This document shows, piece by piece, positions 9,789 through 19,926 of a DNA stretch of 64,000 nt (its first letter is position 1; each line of letters begins with the position of its first letter). Below the pieces are notes generated by a model, which worked only from the letters and a program-made list of their open reading frames with translations, was not told the DNA's origin and made no database searches. Made by a program: the position numbers and the translations under genes. Source of the stretch: Actinomycetota bacterium (GTDB lineage Bacteria; Actinomycetota; UBA4738; HRBIN12); the NCBI GenBank assembly GCA_035697485.1, contig DASSCU010000015.1, forward strand, positions 62,001-126,000, written 5' to 3'.

Positions 9789-10328
9789 GTGCGGCGATGC
9801 GAGATGACCGGCCCCCGGGGCCCCCGGTGGCGTGTCGATGTGCCGACGTCGCATCGCGAGCGGGTCCGTGGTCTCCGGGAGCGCGAGCGGCTCTCGGTCG
9901 ACGACGCGATGCTCTTCGAGCACTGTCGCTCCGTGCACACGATCGGCATGCGGTTTCCGATCACCGTGGCGGCGCTCGATCGGGAGTGGCGCGTCCGGCG
10001 GGTCTCAGTGGTTCGTCCGCGACGGGTGGTGCTCCCCCGCCCTCACGTCCGACACGTCCTGGAGCTCGCCGCCGACGCCGACGTGCGGCCGGGCGACCGC
10101 TTGGTGTTCGATCAGGCAGGTGTCGCCGACCCCCGCACGTCGGGACCGGGTCACCCCTGGCTATACTCTGTCGGCTGCCCTCGTGGCCGCTACCCTGCTG
10201 GAGGAGCACCTGCGCCCCCATCGTCTAGCGGCCTAGGACGCCGCCCTTTCAAGGCGGAAGCACGGGTTCGAATCCCGTTGGGGGCACGGTTCCGGCGCGG
10301 ATCCTCGGGTCTTCGCGCGGCACCGTGA
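9789..10328 (+). CDS. DUF192-family protein with a 3' end running through tRNA-Glu
   Basis: Residues up to about 113 match the small DUF192 family: RVRGLRERERLSVDDAMLF, then HTIGMRFPITVAALD, then VVRPRRVVLP and VLELAADADVRPGDRLVF. The biochemical role of the family is poorly known. Usual proteins end shortly after this point. Here no stop codon occurs and the frame continues about 65 codons through the whole of tRNA-Glu to a TGA at 10326-10328. The tail is low-complexity and probably not selected as protein. No signal peptide is seen, although many relatives are exported. A lost stop, a frameshift or genuine overlap are all possible. Confidence 0.65.
   Translation: MRRCEMTGPRGPRWRVDVPTSHRERVRGLRERERLSVDDAMLFEHCRSVHTIGMRFPITVAALDREWRVRRVSVVRPRRVVLPRPHVRHVLELAADADVRPGDRLVFDQAGVADPRTSGPGHPWLYSVGCPRGRYPAGGAPAPPSSSGLGRRPFKAEARVRIPLGARFRRGSSGLRAAP
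10214..10286 (+). tRNA. tRNA-Glu (anticodon TTC)
   Basis: The acceptor GCCCCCA pairs with TGGGGGC. The anticodon arm is CCGCC-CTTTCAA-GGCGG, giving TTC. The T arm is CGGG-TTCGAAT-CCCG. A TATACT hexamer at 10162-10167 is a possible upstream promoter element. The gene lies inside the DUF192 reading frame. Confidence 0.95.
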
Positions 10329-10345
10329 CAACAGGAACACCACGT

Positions 10346-10424
10346 GCGCCCGTAGAGGAGTCAGGCCGTCCTCACCGCCCTGTCAAGGCGGAGATCGCGG
10401 GATCGAAGCCCGTCGGGCGCGCCA
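10346..10424 (+). tRNA. tRNA-Asp (anticodon GTC), CCA encoded
   Basis: The acceptor GCGCCCG pairs with CGGGCGC, and the discriminator G is followed by CCA. The D arm is GAGG/CCTC. The anticodon arm CCGCC-CTGTCAA-GGCGG gives GTC. The T loop reads ATCGAAG, so the nearly universal T54 is A, and one T-stem closing pair is a G-T wobble. It is followed at once by a strong terminator. Confidence 0.88.
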
Positions 10425-11077: not shown

Positions 11078-11380
11078 CCTCAGTCACCAGGCGGGGCCAT
11101 CGACCCCGGATGCCGCAGGTCACCTCACCTCTACTCCGTCGCCTCGACGCGGATGGCGGGTGGTCGTGGTCCGCGATGCCGTCGACGCGTCCGACGAAGC
11201 ACGGGCAGGAACTCCCCCGGATCCGCGGCATAGGCACCCATCTCGTCGGTACGGCGCCTCGCCCGAATGGCTCCATACCGTCGACCGGTCTTGGGAGCTC
11301 GACCGTTCGTTCGGCGACGTCCCCTCTGCAACACCTCTCATCGCCTTGCGCCTCGATCCCGGACCCCCGAGGATGCCTTC

Positions 11381-12751
11381 GTGGGCCCCCACCCCGAGAC
11401 TCATTACGCCAAGGCCGCCGACGGCGTGAACGTCGCCTATCAGGCGTTCGGCGACGGTCCGGTCGACATCCTGTTCGTGCTGGGTTGGGTGACGCACGTC
11501 GAGCGGATGTGGGACCAGCCGCGGATCGTGCGGTTCCTCGAGCGGCTCGCGACGTTCGGTCGGGTGATGGTCTTCGACAAGCGAGGGGTCGGGATGTCCG
11601 ACCGTGTCCCCGACGACCGGCTCCCCTCGCTCGAGGTGCGGATCGACGACGCCCGGGCCGTGATGGATGCCGTCGGGTCGAACCGCGCGGTCGTGCTCGG
11701 TCATTCCGAGGGCGGTCCGATGGCCACCCTGTTCGCGGCGACGCATCCGGAACGCTCGATCGCGTTGGTGTTGTTCGGCACCGCCGCCTGCTGGAACAAT
11801 GCCCTGGACTACCCGTTCAGGCGTCCGACCCACGAGCACGAGGCGGAGGTGGCCTCGTTCATGGAGCGTCGGGATCGGCTGTGGGGCACCGAAGAGCTTG
11901 CCCGTCAGTACCTCGAAGAGGCCTTCGCGCCGTCGTACGGGGACGACACTCAGCTGGTGGCTTGGCTCGCGGACTACATGCGGAACGCCGCGAGTCCCGG
12001 CGCGGTGAACGCCTTCTCCCGGATGAATGCCCGCATCGACGTCCGTTCGGCCCTTCCCGCCATCCACGTGCCGACCCTCGTACTGGCACGTAACGACGAC
12101 CTCGACGTTCCGATGGCGGAGACGAAGTGGATGGCCGAGCAGATCCGGGGTGCCAGGTTCCTGTCCTTCCCCGGTGACGACCACTACATCTTCATCGGGA
12201 ACCAGGGCGAGCTGCTCGATGAGATCGAGCGGTTCGTGACCGAGGTCCGCGGCGATGAAGCCGACCTCGACCGCCTGCTCGCTACCGTGCTGTTCACCGA
12301 CATCGTCGACTCGACCGTGACCGCCGCGGAGCTGGGCGACAAGGGTTGGCGAACGCTCGTCGAGCGGCACCACGGGCTGGTCCGCGCGCTGCTCGGCCGG
12401 TTCCGCGGCACCGAGGTCGACACCGCCGGGGACGGCTTCTTCGCCACCTTCGACGGTCCGGCGCGGGCCGTGCGCTGCGCGCAGGCGATCGCCCGGGCCG
12501 TGCCGGAGCTCGGGATCGAGGTGCGAGCCGGCGTTCACACCGGCGAGGTGGAGTCGATCGCCGGGAAGATCGGCGGGATCGCCGTGAACATCGGGGCGCG
12601 CATCGCGTCGCTCGCGCGGTCCTCTGAGGTACTTGTCTCACACACCGTCGAGGGACTCGTTTCCGGATCGGGTCTCGTGTTCGAGGACGCGGGAGTCCAT
12701 CCACTGAAGGGCGTCCCCGGCGATTGGCAGCTCTATCGCCTCGTACGCTGA
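11381..12751 (+). CDS. Alpha/beta hydrolase fused to a class III adenylate/guanylate cyclase
   Basis: A 456-aa fusion resembling mycobacterial Rv1900c (LipJ). Residues 1-275 form an alpha/beta hydrolase with the nucleophile elbow GHSEGG and a C-terminal His in PGDDHYIF. Residues 295-456 form a class III cyclase domain. Metal Asp residues are in FTDIVDST and TAGDGFF, and the Asn/Arg pair for ribose and phosphate is in NIGARI, so it is probably catalytically competent, although ATP versus GTP cannot be decided. The GTG at 11381 is chosen because the family starts there (GPHPETHYAKAADG); the longer frame is arginine-rich and unlike the family. Copies of the structured repeat lie on both sides. 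Confidence 0.88.
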   Translation: MGPHPETHYAKAADGVNVAYQAFGDGPVDILFVLGWVTHVERMWDQPRIVRFLERLATFGRVMVFDKRGVGMSDRVPDDRLPSLEVRIDDARAVMDAVGSNRAVVLGHSEGGPMATLFAATHPERSIALVLFGTAACWNNALDYPFRRPTHEHEAEVASFMERRDRLWGTEELARQYLEEAFAPSYGDDTQLVAWLADYMRNAASPGAVNAFSRMNARIDVRSALPAIHVPTLVLARNDDLDVPMAETKWMAEQIRGARFLSFPGDDHYIFIGNQGELLDEIERFVTEVRGDEADLDRLLATVLFTDIVDSTVTAAELGDKGWRTLVERHHGLVRALLGRFRGTEVDTAGDGFFATFDGPARAVRCAQAIARAVPELGIEVRAGVHTGEVESIAGKIGGIAVNIGARIASLARSSEVLVSHTVEGLVSGSGLVFEDAGVHPLKGVPGDWQLYRLVR

Positions 12752-12943: not shown

Positions 12944-13361
12944 GCGTAGCTACGCAGCGGCCCCACAGACGTCGCGGCGCTACGAAACGCCGCAGATCGC
13001 CACGATCTAGGCATCGGCCGCTCCCTCGTCGCCGCCAGAGGTTTCCGCCCAGGCGGCGTCGACGACGATCGCCGCACCCTCATCGAGCGCCTCGACCCTA
13101 GGTCACTGAACCCGGCGGCCGTCAAGTCGTCACGGCGACCGCGAGCGACTGGACCGTGGGCAGCTCGTCGCCGGTGACGACGCCGGCGGCGGCGTCGCGC
13201 GCGGCGAGGAGCCGTGCGGCGCGCCAGGCCTTCCGTTCCCATCGGTCATGACAGCACGTGACAGCGGTCCGGGCCTCCTCGAGTTTCAACACCGGGCTCG
13301 CTCCCGAATTCGAGGGCCACCCCTGATGCAGGCGGAAGTGTCGCGTGCGACGATTTCGCCT
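12944..13361. other. Intergenic stretch without a recognised gene
   Basis: About 420 bases between repeat copy 2 and the receiver gene. Open frames here have no convincing start, family motif or ribosome binding site. A minus-strand run near 13010-13100 reads as a plausible C-terminal tail (VEALDEGAAIVVDAAW) but has no upstream gene, so it may be a remnant. Confidence 0.4.
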
Positions 13362-13718
13362 GTGACGGCGAGGATCCTGATCGTCGATGACCACGCCGGT
13401 TTCCGGTCGTACGCCCGCGCGTTGCTCGTGGCCGAGGGGTTCGACGTCGTGGGTGAGGCGACCGATGGGGCATCGGCGCTCGAGATGGCGCGGTCGCTCG
13501 CGCCCGAACTCGTGTTGCTGGATGTGGCGTTGCCCGACATGGACGGCTTCGCCGTCTGCGACGCGCTGCTGGAGGAGAGCGCCGGCTTGGCGGTGGTTCT
13601 GACGTCGAGCCGCGACGTCTCCTCCTACCGCCGGAGACTGGAGCGAAGTCGGGCCCACGGGTTCATCCCGAAGGGCGAGCTCTCTGGCCCCGCGCTCGCC
13701 GCGTTCGCGGACGGGTAG
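13362..13718 (+). CDS. Receiver-only response regulator
   Basis: A 118-aa CheY-like single receiver domain with no output domain. The acidic pocket is in ILIVDDH, the phospho-acceptor Asp in LLDVALPDMDG, the switch Ser/Thr in VLTSS and the Lys in IPKGE, so the phosphorylation site is intact. The GTG at 13362 directly precedes the first beta strand and is preferred; an ATG at 13326 would add 12 residues. It ends 5 nt before the kinase gene, so the pair is co-transcribed. As a receiver without output it may relay phosphate or act through protein contact. Confidence 0.85.
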   Translation: MTARILIVDDHAGFRSYARALLVAEGFDVVGEATDGASALEMARSLAPELVLLDVALPDMDGFAVCDALLEESAGLAVVLTSSRDVSSYRRRLERSRAHGFIPKGELSGPALAAFADG

Positions 13719-13723
13719 AGCGC

Positions 13724-15307
13724 ATGCGGCTCCTGCGGCTCGCGCTGCTCCCGGGCGCTGCAGCCCTGGCTTTCGCGGCCGAATGGGTCTCGTACCAGAC
13801 TGGCGACCTCGCCCTTGTCGTGGCCGACGCCCTCGTCGGCCTCGTGCTCGTCACGTGCGGCGTCGTCGCCTGGGAGCGGCGCGGCGCGAGCCGCGTCGGG
13901 CCGCTGATGGCTCTCTCGGGCTACACGTGGTTCGCCGGCAACCTCTGGCCGCAGCTCCTCTACCTGCACCGCGGGCCCCTCGTTCACCTCCATATCTCGT
14001 ATCCGACGGGCCGTCTCCGGCGGAGGCTCGCGCGGGCAACGGTCGTCGCCGCCTATGTCAACGCGCTGGTCGAGCCCGTCGCGCGGAATGACGTCGTCAC
14101 GCTGGTGATCGCCGCGCTGGTCGCCGCCGCGGCCCTCGACGGCTTCCTCCGTGCCTCGGGCACCGCCCGGCGGGCCGGCGTTCCCGCTCTTGCGGCGGCG
14201 CTCACATTCGCGTCCGTGCTGGCGCTCGGCGCCGTGCAGCGGCTCGCCGGCTGGGACGCCGACCGAGAGGTGCTCTGGGCGTACGACATCGTGATCGCGT
14301 GCCTCGCGCTCGTTCTCCTCGTGGATCTCCTCCGCGGGCGGTGGGCCGAGGCCGTGGTCGCCGACCTCGTCGTCGACCTGGGGAAGCGGGCCGACACGCG
14401 GACGCTTCGGGACGAGCTCGGGCGCGCGCTCGGCGACCGCTCCCTCGTCCTCGGCTACTGGCTCCCGGAGGAAGATCGCTACGTCGACGATGCAGGTCGT
14501 CCAGTCGAGCTGCCGGAACCCGCAGCGGACAGAGCGGTGACGCCGATCGCACACGACGGGGAGCCGGTCGCGTTGCTCGTTCACGACCAGGCGGTGCTCG
14601 AGGACCCGGCCCTGGTCGATGCCGTTGCCTCGACCGCGAGCATGGCGGTCTCGAACGCCCGCCTCCAGGCGGAGGTGCGGGCACGCGTGCTCGAGCTCGC
14701 TGCCTCACGCCGGCGGATCGTCGAGGCCGCGGACGCCCAGAGGCGTCGCCTCGAGCGGGAGCTGCGCGACGGCGCCGAGCGCCGCCTCGCCCTCGTCGCA
14801 GAGCTCATCGAGGTGGCGCGAGCGGGCGCAGACGGTCCGGCCACGGCGATGCTTAGGGATGTCGAGGAGGAGGTGCGAGGTGCCCGCGCAGAGCTCCACG
14901 ACTTCGCTCAGGGCATCCACCCAAGCACGCTGACCGAGGGAGGCCTGGCCGCCGCGCTCCCGGCGCTCACGATCCGGGCTGGTCTGCCCGTCGAGCTATC
15001 GGTGGCGCTCGGTCGGCTGGCTCCGACCGCCGAAGCGGCCGTCTACTTCCTCTGCTCGGAAGCGCTTGCGAACGCGGCGAAGTATGCCGAGGCGACGCGT
15101 ATGACGATCGACGTTGACGAGTCGGAGGGGTTCGTGCTCGTGACGATCGCAGACGATGGCATCGGCGGCGCGGACGCGAGCCGCGGCTCGGGCCTGCGCG
15201 GCCTCGCCGACCGTGTGGAGGCCCTCGGCGGGCAGCTTTCCGTCCGGAGCCCGATCGGCGGCGGCACTCGGCTGGTCGCGACGATCCCGACCGACGAGCA
15301 TGTGTAA
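13724..15307 (+). CDS. NarL-type sensor kinase lacking the phospho-acceptor histidine
   Basis: A 527-aa membrane sensor. Residues 1 to about 205 hold several membrane helices, then a GAF-like segment, then a HisKA_3/HATPase_c core. In the dimerisation helix the motif normally read ERDLHDGAQQR is [11 protein letters not shown], so the phospho-acceptor His is Arg348 (codon CGC at 14765-14767, one base from CAC). The ATPase part looks intact: N box [13 protein letters not shown]1 box DDGIGGA, G2 box [11 protein letters not shown]. It should bind ATP but cannot autophosphorylate in the usual way. The homologous kinase at 17028-18746 has the opposite defect. It is co-transcribed with the receiver gene. 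Confidence 0.88.
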
Positions 15308-15355
15308 GGAACGGGTCAAGACGCGCCGTAGCTCTCGCCGTCGTGTCGTCCGGAC

Positions 15356-15395
15356 CGGGCCGGCCCCGGTCGAGCAGATCGCCGGGGCCGGCCCG
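15356..15395. terminator. Bidirectional hairpin between convergent genes
   Basis: A perfect 14-bp GC-rich inverted repeat (15356-15369 with 15382-15395) with a 12-nt loop, in the 105-nt gap between the convergent kinase and binding-protein genes. There is no clear T tract, so efficiency is uncertain. Confidence 0.6.
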
Positions 15396-15412
15396 AAGCG
15401 TCGGCTGGGTCC

Positions 15413-16864
15413 TCAGTCGGTCTTCACCCAGGGATGCGACGCGAACGTCACGGCCTCGAGCTTCGCATTGCCTCCACAGCAGTCGACGTCTGCGAACGTG
15501 AGCGTGTCGCCCTCCAGCGACCAGCGGGCGGTGATGATGTAGTCCGAGGCGAATTGGATCTCGATCTGGTCGCGGAACACGGTGTAGCTCCCTTGCCCGC
15601 CGACTTCGCCGTCCGGCCCGACCAGGGTCAACTCACCGGCATCGAAGATCATCCTGAAGACGCCGGGGACAGCGCCGTCCTCCTCGGAGACCCCTGACGT
15701 CAGCCAATCGGCCTTCGTCATCTTCTGCCAGTCGGCTTCCGTCAGCGTCGTCTCGTAGGTGCCGTCCGGGATCGGCGGCGCCGTGGTCGGAGGCTCGGTC
15801 TCCGTGCAGACAGGTGCCTCCGCCGAAGCTGCGATCTGCGTCTTGAGGTCGGTGATGGCCTCGATGTTGGACTTGGTCTCCGGGTCGGCCGTGAGCTCTG
15901 CGTACACGGGCTCGAGGGCGCCGCGAAGTGCACCGAGATCGCTCTCGGAGGCGACGGCGAAGGTCACGCCGCGACGGCAGAGCTGGAGCGTCGCCTCTTC
16001 GTCTTCCGCGCGCGCCGCGGCGAGCGCGCCCGGAACCGCGGCGGCGGCCGCCTCACGAAGGAGGGCTTGCTGGTTCGGAGCGAGCGAGTCTGAGACCTCT
16101 TTGCCCACGAAGATCACGAGCGGCCGGGGCCAGAGGTTCACGTTGGCACCGACATACTTCGCGCTCTTGTTGTACCGGTTGCCCCAGATCGCTCCGAGGT
16201 GCTGCTCTGTCGCGTCGAGACCCTTGAGAGAGCCGCCGGCGGGAAGCGCCTCGAGCGTGGCGCCAAGAGCCTGGATCGTCTGAACGGAGAGCTCGTTCTC
16301 CGCTCCTCCGATGACCTCGCCCTCGAAGTCCGACGGCTCGAGGAACGGATGGCTGACCCCGAGCAGCTTCCGCATCTGCCCGGGAAGGACGCCGATCCCG
16401 ACCACTCCGAGCTCCTCGACGCCGTCCAGCATGCTCGTGGGGATCCCGCTCTCGAACACCTTCTCCTGAAGGTCGTAGCTGTCGACGAGGAGCGGGGCAA
16501 GGAGGGCCTGAAAGCTCGTCACGTCGAGGGTGTCGAAGACACGCGCCCCGACCCAGGCCATGTCGACTTTGCCGGCTTCGACGTCCTCGATCGTCCCTCG
16601 CTCCGCGTTCGGATCACCCGCTCGCCACCCCGGCTCGAACTCGATCCGCATCGTCCCGTCCGACCGCGTCGCGACCTCCTCGGCGAAGACCTGGAGTGGC
16701 GGCTGGATGTCATCGGTGAAGCTGGCGAGCTTGAGTACGATCGGCTCTTGCTCTTCAACACCGCCGGCCTTGTCGCTGCCCGAGGCGGTGCAGGCAGCCA
16801 GAGCGATCGCCGACGCTGCGAGCACCGCGCCAACCGCACATCTTGTGATTCGGCTCATCTGCAT
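15413..16864 (-). CDS. DctP-type (TRAP) solute-binding lipoprotein with extra C-terminal domain
   Basis: A 483-aa exported lipoprotein with lipobox LAAC (Cys25). Residues 40 to about 350 form a DctP-like TRAP solute-binding domain (LKLASFTDDIQPPLQVFAEE; RIEFEPGWRAGD; GKVDMAWVGARVFDTL), which normally binds small organic acids. About residues 360-483 form an added beta-rich domain starting IPDGTYETTLTEADW. No TRAP membrane subunits are encoded nearby. It sits between two sensor kinases, so a ligand-sensing role is more likely than transport here. The ATG at 16864 has AGGAGG about 10 nt upstream. It is divergent from the second kinase, with a 163-nt gap holding both promoters. Confidence 0.82.
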   Translation of the reverse strand: MQMSRITRCAVGAVLAASAIALAACTASGSDKAGGVEEQEPIVLKLASFTDDIQPPLQVFAEEVATRSDGTMRIEFEPGWRAGDPNAERGTIEDVEAGKVDMAWVGARVFDTLDVTSFQALLAPLLVDSYDLQEKVFESGIPTSMLDGVEELGVVGIGVLPGQMRKLLGVSHPFLEPSDFEGEVIGGAENELSVQTIQALGATLEALPAGGSLKGLDATEQHLGAIWGNRYNKSAKYVGANVNLWPRPLVIFVGKEVSDSLAPNQQALLREAAAAAVPGALAAARAEDEEATLQLCRRGVTFAVASESDLGALRGALEPVYAELTADPETKSNIEAITDLKTQIAASAEAPVCTETEPPTTAPPIPDGTYETTLTEADWQKMTKADWLTSGVSEEDGAVPGVFRMIFDAGELTLVGPDGEVGGQGSYTVFRDQIEIQFASDYIITARWSLEGDTLTFADVDCCGGNAKLEAVTFASHPWVKTD

Positions 16865-17027
16865 CGTGGTGCACCTCCTCTCGTCGGTGCCACGACGCTA
16901 GGACCGGAACGCTTTGCGCGCATCGGGGCGCCCCCTCGAATGCCCGTGATCCAGCATGGGGATACCCCTCGTGCTGCGCAAGGCCAGCACCGGAGGCCTC
17001 GCTCGGCCGGTGTGCGACGATTGACAC

Positions 17028-18746
17028 ATGCGGCTTCGGCTCGTGCTCTGGGCGGCCGGCCTGGCCCTCGGTGTCTTCTCGCTCCTGATCGCGCGCGCCG
17101 ATCCGGCGTTCTCGTTCGCCGGGACGTCGTTCGGTGGTGCAGTCGCCCTGCTCGGCGCCGGTTGGGCACTGCTGACCTGCGCGCTCGCGCATTGGGGCAG
17201 GCGTCCCGGGAACGCCGTCGGCCCGCTGCTCGTCGCAGCGAGCTGCGCCTGGTTCCTCGCCGAGTGGGACAACCCTGGTGTCGGCTCACCCGCCGTCTTC
17301 ACGGTCGGCCTGGTCTTCTACGCGGCCTGTGCGCCCCTCGTAGGCTGGGCGACGCTCGCCTACCCCAGCGGCCGGTTGAGTTCGTGGGCGGAGCGCGTCG
17401 CGGTCAGCGTGGCGTTGGCGGGGGCTTTGATCGTGGTCGGGCTGCTTCCGGCGCTCTTCTTCGATCCGGCGACCCGGGGTTGCGTCCTGTGTCCGGACAA
17501 TCTCGTGCTCGTAAGCGACGAGTCGGGACTCTTCGACGATCTGAATCGTGTGGGAGTGCATCTCGGGCTTGCCTGGTCACTCCTTCTCGTCGCGGTGGCA
17601 GGCTGGAGGGTCGCACGCTCGAGTCCCGCGAGACGCCGCGTCGTCGCTCCGATCGTCCTCGCCGGAGGCATCTACCTGGCCCTTGTCGCATCTAGCTTCG
17701 GCGCGAGCCTCGATCGCGGCTTCCTCGGGAGCAGCACGTTCGATCAACGACTCTGGCTCGCGCAGGCAGCCGCCCTCGTGGCACTCGCGCTTACCGTCGC
17801 CTGGGGATTGCTGCGGACTCGCCGCATGCGCTCGTCGCTCGCCCGGCTCGTCGTCGAGCTCGGCGAGCCTGCTCCCGCGGGGGGTCTGCGCGACGGGCTC
17901 GCCCGAACGCTTGCGGATCCCGAGCTCGAGATCGTCTATCCGGTGGGCGAAGGGCACTACGCGGACGCGGGAGGGCGCACGGTCGACCTCGCCCGGGTGG
18001 AGGGTCGTGTCGCGACGCCGCTCGTTCGCGACGGTCGACCCGTGGCCGTTCTCGTACACCGGGCCGGCCTTCTCGACGATCCAGAGCTCGTCGAAGAAGT
18101 CACGTCGGCGGCCCGCCTCGCGCTCGAGAATGAGCGTCTCCAGGCCGAAGTGCACGCGCAGCTCGAGGATCTGCGCTCCTCGCGCGCCCGCATCATCGAA
18201 GCGGGCGATGCCGAGCGCCGCCGACTCGAGCGCGACCTCCACGACGGCGCTCAGCAGCGTCTCGTCGGGCTCTCACTCGCGCTCCGCCTTCTGCGAGCGC
18301 AGCTCGGGATCGATCGGGATCAGAGACTCGCGCGGCGCCTCGATGAGGCCGGCGTCGAGCTCGCTCGAGCGGTCGCCGAGCTCCGCGAGCTCGCGCACGG
18401 GATCCACCCGGTTGTCCTCAGCGACGAGGGACTCGCCGCCGCGGTCGAGGCCCTCGCCGAAGCGACGCCGGCGCCCCTTCGCATCGGGGCATTGCCGCAG
18501 GAGCGGTTTCCTGCGGTCGTCGAGACAGCCGCTTACCTGGTCGTCGCGGAAGCGACAAAGGCGGGGGCCGCCCGCGTGAGCGCGATCAGGCGCGACGGAG
18601 CGCTCCTCGTCGAAGTCGAGACCGGAGCCGAGCCCCAGGGGCTCGTCGACTTGGAGGATCGCGTCGGTGCCCTGGACGGAAGGGTCGCGGTCGAGCGCGC
18701 GTCCGGCGGCGGGGTCAGGATCCGCGCCGAGATCCCATGCGAGTAG
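17028..18746 (+). CDS. NarL-type sensor kinase with degenerate ATP-binding domain
   Basis: A 572-aa membrane sensor homologous to the kinase at 13724. The N-terminal half has about eight membrane helices, followed by a GAF-like segment (VATPLVRDGRPVAVLVHRAG) and a normal HisKA_3 helix, RRLERDLHDGAQQRL, with His405. The ATPase domain is eroded. The N box is EATKAGAARV without its Asn, the G1 box expected as DDGxGG reads ETGAEP, and the G2 box is missing. It probably cannot bind ATP, so its His405 would need to be phosphorylated in trans. The stop overlaps the LuxR regulator by 10 nt. Confidence 0.88.
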   Translation: MRLRLVLWAAGLALGVFSLLIARADPAFSFAGTSFGGAVALLGAGWALLTCALAHWGRRPGNAVGPLLVAASCAWFLAEWDNPGVGSPAVFTVGLVFYAACAPLVGWATLAYPSGRLSSWAERVAVSVALAGALIVVGLLPALFFDPATRGCVLCPDNLVLVSDESGLFDDLNRVGVHLGLAWSLLLVAVAGWRVARSSPARRRVVAPIVLAGGIYLALVASSFGASLDRGFLGSSTFDQRLWLAQAAALVALALTVAWGLLRTRRMRSSLARLVVELGEPAPAGGLRDGLARTLADPELEIVYPVGEGHYADAGGRTVDLARVEGRVATPLVRDGRPVAVLVHRAGLLDDPELVEEVTSAARLALENERLQAEVHAQLEDLRSSRARIIEAGDAERRRLERDLHDGAQQRLVGLSLALRLLRAQLGIDRDQRLARRLDEAGVELARAVAELRELAHGIHPVVLSDEGLAAAVEALAEATPAPLRIGALPQERFPAVVETAAYLVVAEATKAGAARVSAIRRDGALLVEVETGAEPQGLVDLEDRVGALDGRVAVERASGGGVRIRAEIPCE

Positions 18747-19396
18747 TCGTCGCCGACGATTCGATGCTCCTCCGCGAGGGCCTAGCGCGCCTCCTCGCAG
18801 ATGCCGGCTTCGACGTGGTAGGTACAGCCGAGAATGCGTCCGAGCTCATGCGGCGGGTCGAGCTGACGCGCCCAGACGTCGCGATCATCGACATCAAGAT
18901 GCCGCCTACGCACACGGACGAGGGGATAGCCGCGGGGAAGGAGATCCGCCGAGACCATCCGACGATCGGGGTGCTCGTCCTCTCTCAGTACCTCGAATCG
19001 CGCTACGCGATGCAGCTACTCGAGGAGGCACCCGAGCGCGTCGGGTACCTGCTCAAGGAACGCCTCTCGGACATCGCTGTACTCGCCGATGCGCTCAAGC
19101 GGATCGGCGAGGGGGAGTGCGTCATCGACCCGACGATCGTCTCGCGGCTCGTACACCGCGCGCGGGAACAGGGCCCCCTCGACGAGCTGACGGAGCGCGA
19201 GCGCGAGGTGCTGGGGCTCATGGCCGAGGGGCGTTCGAACGGAGCGATCTGCCAGACGCTGTTCCTGAGTCCAAAGACGGTCGAGGCGAACGTGCGGCAG
19301 ATCTTCCGGAAGCTCGGGTTGCAGCAGTCGCCCGACGACCACCGCCGCGTGCTGGCGGTGCTCACCTACCTGCGCGCAGGCTCCCCACCGACGTGA
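18737..19396 (+). CDS. NarL/LuxR-family response regulator
   Basis: A 219-aa transcription factor. The receiver has VVVADDSMLLREG, the phospho-acceptor Asp in AIIDIKMP and a Lys in YLLKERL. The C-terminal LuxR helix-turn-helix reads LTEREREVLGLMAEGRSNGA followed by the recognition helix SPKTVEANVRQIFRKLGLQ. It overlaps the kinase gene by 10 nt and is its likely partner. It is the only DNA-binding output in this cassette. Confidence 0.92.
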   Translation: MRVVVADDSMLLREGLARLLADAGFDVVGTAENASELMRRVELTRPDVAIIDIKMPPTHTDEGIAAGKEIRRDHPTIGVLVLSQYLESRYAMQLLEEAPERVGYLLKERLSDIAVLADALKRIGEGECVIDPTIVSRLVHRAREQGPLDELTEREREVLGLMAEGRSNGAICQTLFLSPKTVEANVRQIFRKLGLQQSPDDHRRVLAVLTYLRAGSPPT

Positions 19397-19752: not shown

Positions 19753-19836
19753 CCCACCTCCACTCGCTACACTTCAACGCGCTGGTGATGACCTCGGCGG
19801 CGATTCCTGCCAGGTTTCTACCGGCCCGGGCCAGGT
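19753..19836 (+). repeat. Structured dispersed repeat, copy 3 (partial), abutting tRNA-Phe
   Basis: Matches the first half of copies 1 and 2 (cacctcc, then acttcaacgcgctggtgatgacctcgg, given here in short pieces) and the segment cggcccgggccaggt. In this copy ggccaggt forms the first 8 nt of tRNA-Phe. The second half of the element is absent and replaced by the tRNA. Confidence 0.75.
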
Positions 19837-19901
19837 AGCTCAGTTGGCAGAGCACGCGGCTGAAAACCGCGGTGTCGGCAGTTCGATTCTGCCCCTGGCC
19901 A
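19829..19901 (+). tRNA. tRNA-Phe (anticodon GAA)
   Basis: The acceptor GGCCAGG pairs with CCTGGCC. The D arm is GCTC/GAGC. The anticodon arm CGCGG-CTGAAAA-CCGCG gives GAA. The T arm is GGCAG-TTCGATT-CTGCC, discriminator A. Its 5' end is continuous with repeat copy 3. Confidence 0.95.
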
Positions 19902-19926
19902 CTCGGATACGGCCCCGTTGCCGGGC

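Follow-up and report, generated by a model that had tools for sequence, protein, structure and literature searches.

How can two sensor kinases, each of which has lost a part needed for autophosphorylation, be kept next to each other in the same genome? This question is raised by a cassette in a 64,000-nucleotide stretch of an Actinomycetota genome (contig DASSCU010000015.1; the whole stretch is called the window below), in which two HisKA_3-type kinases, A and B, stand on either side of an inverted gene for a TRAP-type solute-binding lipoprotein of the DctP family. A preliminary description made from the DNA letters had placed a receiver-only protein next to A, a LuxR regulator overlapping B and the DctP lipoprotein between the kinases, and this gene set was confirmed by open reading frames and Pfam matches. 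We consider it likely, from the comparison of sequences, that A and B together make up a split (heteromeric) sensor kinase of the HisKA_3 type, with the dedicated lipoprotein as its gate. Since the same pair, always beside a DctP lipoprotein, recurs across distantly related actinobacteria, it is very probable that A and B function only together, as the two parts of one switch.

The defects of the two kinases complement each other. For kinase A, motif alignment and Pfam agreed to the residue with the earlier claim that Arg348 replaces the phospho-acceptor histidine next to an intact ATP domain: HATPase_c was found (E 6e-9), and HisKA_3 scored 16.9 bits, below the 24-bit cut-off. In kinase B, HisKA_3 was found (Pfam E 4e-10) with His405 kept, and Pfam gave no HATPase_c at E<=1. 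The alignment also bore out the described loss of its N, G1 and G2 boxes, with only VAEATK-AGA left of the N box and with DDGxGGAD and GSGL deleted or replaced, so that neither protein taken singly has the complete set of HisKA_3 sensor-kinase features. The architecture that the two kinases were said to share was upheld for the multi-helix N-termini and the HisKA_3 segments; the third part, a GAF-like segment, was not detected as a GAF domain by Pfam, and the AlphaFold models place a small alpha/beta domain there. The AlphaFold single-chain model of B has a plausible reduced CA fold, and DesK, the best solved-sequence match of A, is also among the fold matches of B. As a MctS, MadS or NarX equivalog, A fell below the NCBIfam cut-offs, with 77.9 bits against 700 for MctS and the others lower.

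A second full cassette is present in the same genome (locus L022, contig C23), with receiver, A', inverted DctP, B' and LuxR in the same orientations. Its A' carries HRLQEGAERR, with Gln for His and intact ATP boxes, and is ~44-45% identical to A, and its B' carries DLHDGAQQRL, has lost the N-box Asn and is 38% identical to B. Corresponding parts of the two cassettes are 34-65% identical (65% for the LuxR regulators), which indicates that the pattern is old and maintained. Cassettes elsewhere were found by an alignment query of the genome-contig collection; a single-protein query with A gave no match. The preliminary description had proposed a co-occurrence search for A/B pairs flanking DctP proteins, and we obtained 15 A-B pairs, each on one contig, from several actinobacterial lineages with the window genome's two included; a DctP-family gene lies beside or between the kinases in all 15, and LuxR follows B in nearly all of them. 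Genome G066 holds two cassettes (L171, L172) orthologous to the window genome's two, and the cultured Terrabacter sp. Root181 also holds two (L068, L188), with close copies in four more genomes of the Terrabacter family (L200-L203) and distant ones in two (L204, L205). Further cassettes were found in a Solirubrobacterales metagenome-assembled genome (L074), in G706 (L233) and in G938 (L232). Contig ends split the pair in two genomes: in G026, receiver-A lies at one end and B-LuxR at another, and in G024, B-LuxR adjoins a row of DctP genes that reaches the contig end. The gene order is variable: in Terrabacter the genes divergent from LuxR-B are DctP-receiver-A, and in L074 and L233 they are receiver-A-DctP. 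The linkage is thus more than the passive conservation of one layout. The nearest homologues are intact kinases of single-kinase operons of the receiver-histidine kinase-LuxR type (L114, L123, L101, L235), which share these three gene types and their order with the cassettes and probably represent the ancestral layout; unlike the cassettes, they contain one complete kinase and no DctP gene.

The complementary pattern holds throughout the family. In A, residues E446, N450, K453, D477, D478, G479, G481, G482, G488 and G490 are kept in 16/16 proteins. The acceptor His has been lost in 12 of 16, which carry R, Q, Y, Q, A, A, A, A, D, G, R and R in its place, and the remaining four, from G066 (two), G398 and G938, have H. 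All 17 B proteins keep the His, Asp(+1) and Gln(+5), and all 17 have lost the N-box Asn. Searched member by member, Pfam found HisKA_3 in 15/15 B and HATPase_c in 0/15, and in A it found HATPase_c in 14/15 and HisKA_3 in 4/15 at E<=0.1. A scan of HisKA_3 cores yielded 192 distinct cores, 163 of them intact, and only two defective ones were outside cassettes. Fisher tests gave p ~6e-21 for the missing N box of B and ~1e-14 for the missing His of A, values that ignore relatedness and serve as a guide only; the complementary defects are not due to chance.

The same division extends to further motifs. HisKA_3 kinases such as NarX and DesK (Gln193) dephosphorylate their regulator through the Gln at His+5, in the motif HDxxxQ (PMC5231405, PMC3510030). 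This Gln is present in 17/17 B and in 74/83 intact relatives, and in 0/16 A, including the A proteins with His. The segment from YPxGR to RR, a loop that should face outside, judging by the positive-inside rule and by how the helices follow one another in the model, measures 87-91 residues with a C-x2/3-C motif in all B and 81-97 residues in intact relatives; in A it has ~55 residues and no C-x2/3-C, with 69 and 78 residues in two Terrabacter A proteins, one of them at an assembly gap. Conservation of the DHp region around the His is 0.86 in B, where it is the best-conserved part, versus 0.63 in A, and that of the CA domain is 0.64 in A versus 0.51 in B. Since A is missing both the loop and the phosphatase Gln and B has both, A looks reduced to an ATP engine, and B seems to keep the sensing, acceptor, phosphatase and docking parts.

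How did the pair arise? In a tree of 75 cores, all B formed one clade (SH-aLRT 99) and all A formed another, both among the intact kinases of receiver-histidine kinase-LuxR operons. A was again one clade (100/99) when the acceptor column was masked in a more careful tree. The His state changed at least five times on the A tree, or about four times on well-supported branches alone, and because all intact outgroups have the His, these changes are read as losses. One row of the 75-core tree labelled intact (L074_7878) is the A sequence of G398, and this mislabelling explains two changes for group A. The loss of ATP binding is common to all B, so it would have come first; the His of A would have been dispensable afterwards and lost repeatedly, which is the order that one-way phosphorylation from A to B predicts. 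With A proteins that have the His and A proteins that lack it both extant, the steps from homodimer to obligate heteromer can be read from sequence. The distance matrices of A and B correlated with a Mantel r of 0.945, or 0.90 with the Terrabacter clade collapsed, and 0/5000 permutations reached as high a value: A and B are co-inherited. The idea that A and B stem from a recent tandem duplication of a single kinase was rejected, as the two form separate clades among intact kinases, and the pair is accordingly either old or assembled from two paralogues.

The split between ATP catalysis in A and the acceptor His in B, as the preliminary description put it, is therefore strongly supported by the 15 cassettes, the single clade of each kinase, their co-inheritance and the complementary retention of residues. 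In the mechanism that we propose, A would act as the ATP engine, with a CA domain that should bind ATP and a DHp domain of its own lacking both acceptor His and phosphatase Gln. B would be the sensor and output half, having the C-x2-C loop, His405, HDxxxQ and an almost invariant DHp helix, and its CA domain is predicted no longer to bind ATP. The DHp helices would hold the two together, in the simplest case in a heterodimer, and within this complex A would phosphorylate His405 of B in trans. From phosphorylated B the phosphoryl group would go to the LuxR regulator encoded by the overlapping gene, and it may also go to the receiver-only protein as a sink, and a B that is not engaged by A would act as a phosphatase. 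The DctP lipoprotein, either ligand-bound or free, would contact the membrane part, most likely B with its loop, and thereby set the balance.

What could the lipoprotein do in such a cassette? The window protein has the lipobox LAAC, DKAGG after the lipid Cys and an extra C-terminal region of ~130 aa. This region after the DctP domain (window 15413-15800) gave no Pfam match, and in Terrabacter (L068 7770-9629) it is apparently repeated twice. By sequence the cassette DctPs have the TRAP binding-protein fold, with solved TRAP binding proteins as their best matches. Of the TRAP transporter (DctPQM), the DctP-family binding protein is present and the DctM permease is missing. DctM was not found anywhere in the window genome, in line with the earlier claim of a DctP-type lipoprotein without a TRAP permease, and the only two DctP proteins of this genome are both within its two cassettes. 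DctM is likewise absent in 12/14 cassette genomes, and in most of them every DctP hit falls in cassettes; G437 has two extra DctP genes, and G026 has seven DctP hits on contigs without A or B (C114 and C67). In SiaP-type proteins, the second conserved Arg contacts the carboxylate. The alignment shows that the cassette DctPs are without this Arg, the KIRV motif being replaced by ITFAGF-like residues, so their ligand may be unusual. In view of the invariant linkage and the absent TRAP permeases, the DctP protein is probably a ligand reporter for the kinase pair.

Two further observations concern these lipoproteins. A motif [DNS][KR]AGG follows the lipidated Cys in most cassette DctPs (window, L022, L057, L068, L171, L188, L200-L205, L232), where the sequence usually varies between lipoproteins, and it may be a contact or sorting motif. 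In G024, the genes next to B-LuxR are four tandem DctP-like genes (L057 6182-12279), as if the kinase pair hears several binding proteins, and G026 with its seven hits is the sister genome of G024.

The kinase pair might be split as proposed and the DctP gene might be a co-regulated output, scavenging or buffering the ligand instead of providing the input. The DctP gene diverges from B, which is a common site for a regulated target gene, and the four tandem copies at one locus and the seven hits in the sister genome could represent an expanded output. We regard this arrangement as unlikely, because the missing TRAP permease in 12/14 genomes makes uptake unlikely, the DctP gene is kept in every complete cassette despite the changing gene order, and the conservation of the residues right after the lipid Cys would be odd for a mere scavenger.

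Alternatively, B could be only a phosphatase or docking platform for the LuxR regulator and A its allosteric pseudokinase partner, in the manner of RetS-GacS or DivL-CckA, with an intact paralogue encoded at another locus supplying the phosphoryl group. B does retain the HDxxxQ phosphatase motif, the genome does contain intact relatives, including a kinase on contig C56 that forms a similar pair with a LuxR regulator, and pseudokinases are known to regulate partner kinases elsewhere, as for DivL (PMC4211667). This possibility appears quite improbable to us, since a pure phosphatase would not need the His405 that is invariant in B, an allosteric partner would not need the invariant catalytic residues of the ATP site in A, and A and B are strictly co-inherited, with no intact kinase as a regular cassette member.

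A could also be an ordinary kinase that uses another phospho-acceptor, with B as a decoy or modulator. Four A proteins have a His at the normal position, and helix 2 of window A contains the triplet LHD (392-394, His393). The preliminary description had named an alternative His in A as a finding that would speak against it, and we rejected His393 as an alternative acceptor because the triplet is not conserved among A proteins; helix 1 offers no replacement His in the 12 of 16 A proteins that have R, Q, Y, A, D or G at the acceptor position, and every A protein shows degradation of both the phosphatase Gln and the flanking docking surface. We therefore give this idea very little credence. Decay of the two genes into pseudogenes, or assembly and sequencing errors, for which the frameshifts or assembly gaps in some copies (L172, L068) could be cited, has a negligible chance of accounting for the defects, as both frames are open in the window and other genomes and the same partner-specific, non-random pattern is seen in all 15 pairs that share a contig, in spite of large sequence distances.

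Several points weigh against the split-kinase reading itself. The four A proteins with His could still autophosphorylate alone in their lineages (G066 twice, G398 and G938), so that the obligate two-part kinase of the preliminary description stands for the window and most members but not for these. A or B occurring alone and functional had been named there as contrary evidence: a functional-looking A thus exists, but no B with an ATP site and no His-keeping A without B was found. This HisKA_3 type may react in cis or in trans, and if it is strictly cis, the transfer would have to take place between dimers. The true partner of A or of B could be one of the intact paralogues in the same genome (for example L008), and the ligand of DctP may be unrelated to the kinases.

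Split kinases are already known, with up to 1.7% of kinases estimated as possibly split (PMC3591291), and the A-B pair fits this class at the level of sequence: the acceptor His is missing from A and the ATP site from B, and the two are encoded together and co-inherited. In CheA3/CheA4 of Rhodobacter sphaeroides, neither of which autophosphorylates alone, ATP catalysis and the acceptor are likewise on two proteins, with the phosphatase on the acceptor half (PMC3591291), and the phosphatase motif of our pair is also on the acceptor half only (17/17 B, 0/16 A). CheA3 and CheA4 differ in being CheA-type chemotaxis proteins with whole domains missing, whereas A and B are full-length membrane HisKA_3 paralogues with point or box losses and a DctP lipoprotein beside them. 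Hik36-Hik43 (PilL-N/PilL-C) of Synechocystis is also a kinase spread over two genes and acting with a response regulator, as seen from two-hybrid and mutant data (PMC7656254); unlike the complementary paralogues described here, it is a CheA homologue cut in two and has no binding protein. RetS-GacS and DivL-CckA share with our pair a degenerate histidine kinase that acts on another kinase, but one partner there is a full kinase, and here both halves are incomplete and complementary. DesK and NarX have the same DHp-CA fold and HDxxxQ motif, and they are complete homodimeric kinases. In Mycobacterium tuberculosis, Rv0600c and Rv0601c are short proteins of another kinase family, one with the ATP domain and the other with the His, which lack a DctP protein and come from a gene split rather than from complementary loss in paralogues. 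These two histidine kinases cooperate with one regulator, TcrA (PMC9274095), and in this cooperation with a single regulator they resemble A and B.

No description of this HisKA_3 pair or of any DctP-linked split kinase was found in the open-access papers searched. Whether the cassettes constitute an undescribed and widespread actinobacterial receptor class, namely an obligate heteromeric sensor kinase of complementary membrane paralogues gated by a captive, non-transport TRAP-type lipoprotein, is in our judgement evenly balanced. Histidine kinases are normally homodimers with the whole reaction in each chain, and here a heteromer appears to have been fixed by complementary loss across a family. 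The kinase and phosphatase motifs are on different proteins, which is the condition that gives switch-like signalling according to modelling; for CheA3/CheA4, ultrasensitivity and bistability were possible in the model when the acceptor half carried the phosphatase (PMC3591291). If real, the receptor class would provide a natural example of a bifunctional split kinase, a type for which ultrasensitive or bistable responses are predicted, and its A proteins with and without the His would form a natural series of evolutionary intermediates. The cassette DctP is a clear candidate for a binding protein of the TRAP type that has exchanged uptake for signalling. The two cassettes of the named isolate Terrabacter sp. 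Root181 make the split-kinase idea directly testable in that strain. The features of the window cassette are collected in Table 1.

Table 1 Features of the kinase-DctP cassette, in positions of the window.
Feature	Position	Strand	Basis or remark
Receiver-only protein	13248..13718	+	Pfam Response_reg E 8.5e-21; 156 aa as the longest open reading frame
Kinase A, 527 aa	13724..15307	+	Multi-helix membrane N-terminus without extracytoplasmic loop; HisKA_3 with Arg348; intact HATPase_c
Arg348 codon CGC of kinase A at the phospho-acceptor position	14765..14767	+	His in intact relatives (DLHDGAQQRL)
Arg353 of kinase A (His+5), phosphatase Gln site of HisKA_3 kinases	14780..14782	+	Non-Gln in 16/16 A
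DctP-family (TRAP-type) solute-binding lipoprotein, 483 aa	15413..16864	-	Pfam DctP E 6.8e-25; NCBIfam TRAP_S1
Divergent intergenic region between DctP gene and kinase B	16865..17027	.	Sequence; same divergent layout in L022, L171, L232, L068 and others
Kinase B, 572 aa	17028..18746	+	Multi-helix membrane N-terminus with C-x2-C loop; HisKA_3 with His405 and HDxxxQ; degenerate CA domain
CVLC (Cys152-Cys155) in predicted extracytoplasmic loop of B	17481..17492	+	C-x2/3-C in 17/17 B, in no A
His405 codon CAC, predicted phospho-acceptor of B	18240..18242	+	Within intact DLHDGAQQRL
Gln410 of B (His+5), phosphatase Gln of HDxxxQ	18255..18257	+	In 17/17 B; role from PMC5231405, PMC3510030
NarL/LuxR-type response regulator, probable output	18737..19396	+	Pfam Response_reg E 7.9e-17, GerE E 5.5e-14

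The start of the receiver-only protein is uncertain, since position 13248 comes from the longest open reading frame and a later start, for example near 13362, is possible. Its acceptor Asp, Thr/Ser and Lys motifs look intact as read from the sequence, and relatives of 52-57% identity are present in most other cassettes. The gene of the NarL/LuxR regulator and the 3' end of B overlap by 10 bases.

Other kinases with partial defects or possible cross-talk were noticed. The kinase at L162 1495-3468 (G207) has Asp at the acceptor site (RIGRDLDDEVQRHL), its N box is intact and no B partner is visible in the 3.9 kb covered, and a 229-aa kinase-like protein of the window genome (L013 1489-2178, contig C51), unrelated to the cassettes, has a His but no N box and stands beside a LuxR regulator. 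Also in the window genome, L024 (contig C56, 111000-130000) contains several intact HisKA_3 kinases and LuxR regulators, which could engage in cross-talk with A or B.

Around the cassettes of type 2, proteins (L057 4383-4946 and 5145-6185; L022 2862-3722) resembling BTAD-like transcriptional-activator domains and, in L057, an NHL-repeat-like lipoprotein were noted by eye as possible further components. The type-2 cassettes L022, L171, L057, L232 and L205 share words such as CACATCG.GGC and TGTGG(C/T)(C/T)A(G/C)CAC(GG) upstream of B, a candidate operator or promoter element. When the DctP-B intergenic region was inspected for an operator-like repeat, words resembling GTGGC..GCAC were seen in some type-2 cassettes and not clearly in the window.

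In the surroundings of the window cassette, positions 11267-12751 encode an alpha/beta-hydrolase fused to an adenylate/guanylate cyclase domain. The region is flanked by genes for tRNA-Glu (10214-10287), tRNA-Asp (10346-10424) and tRNA-Phe (19829-19902), the last of which lies just downstream of the cassette.

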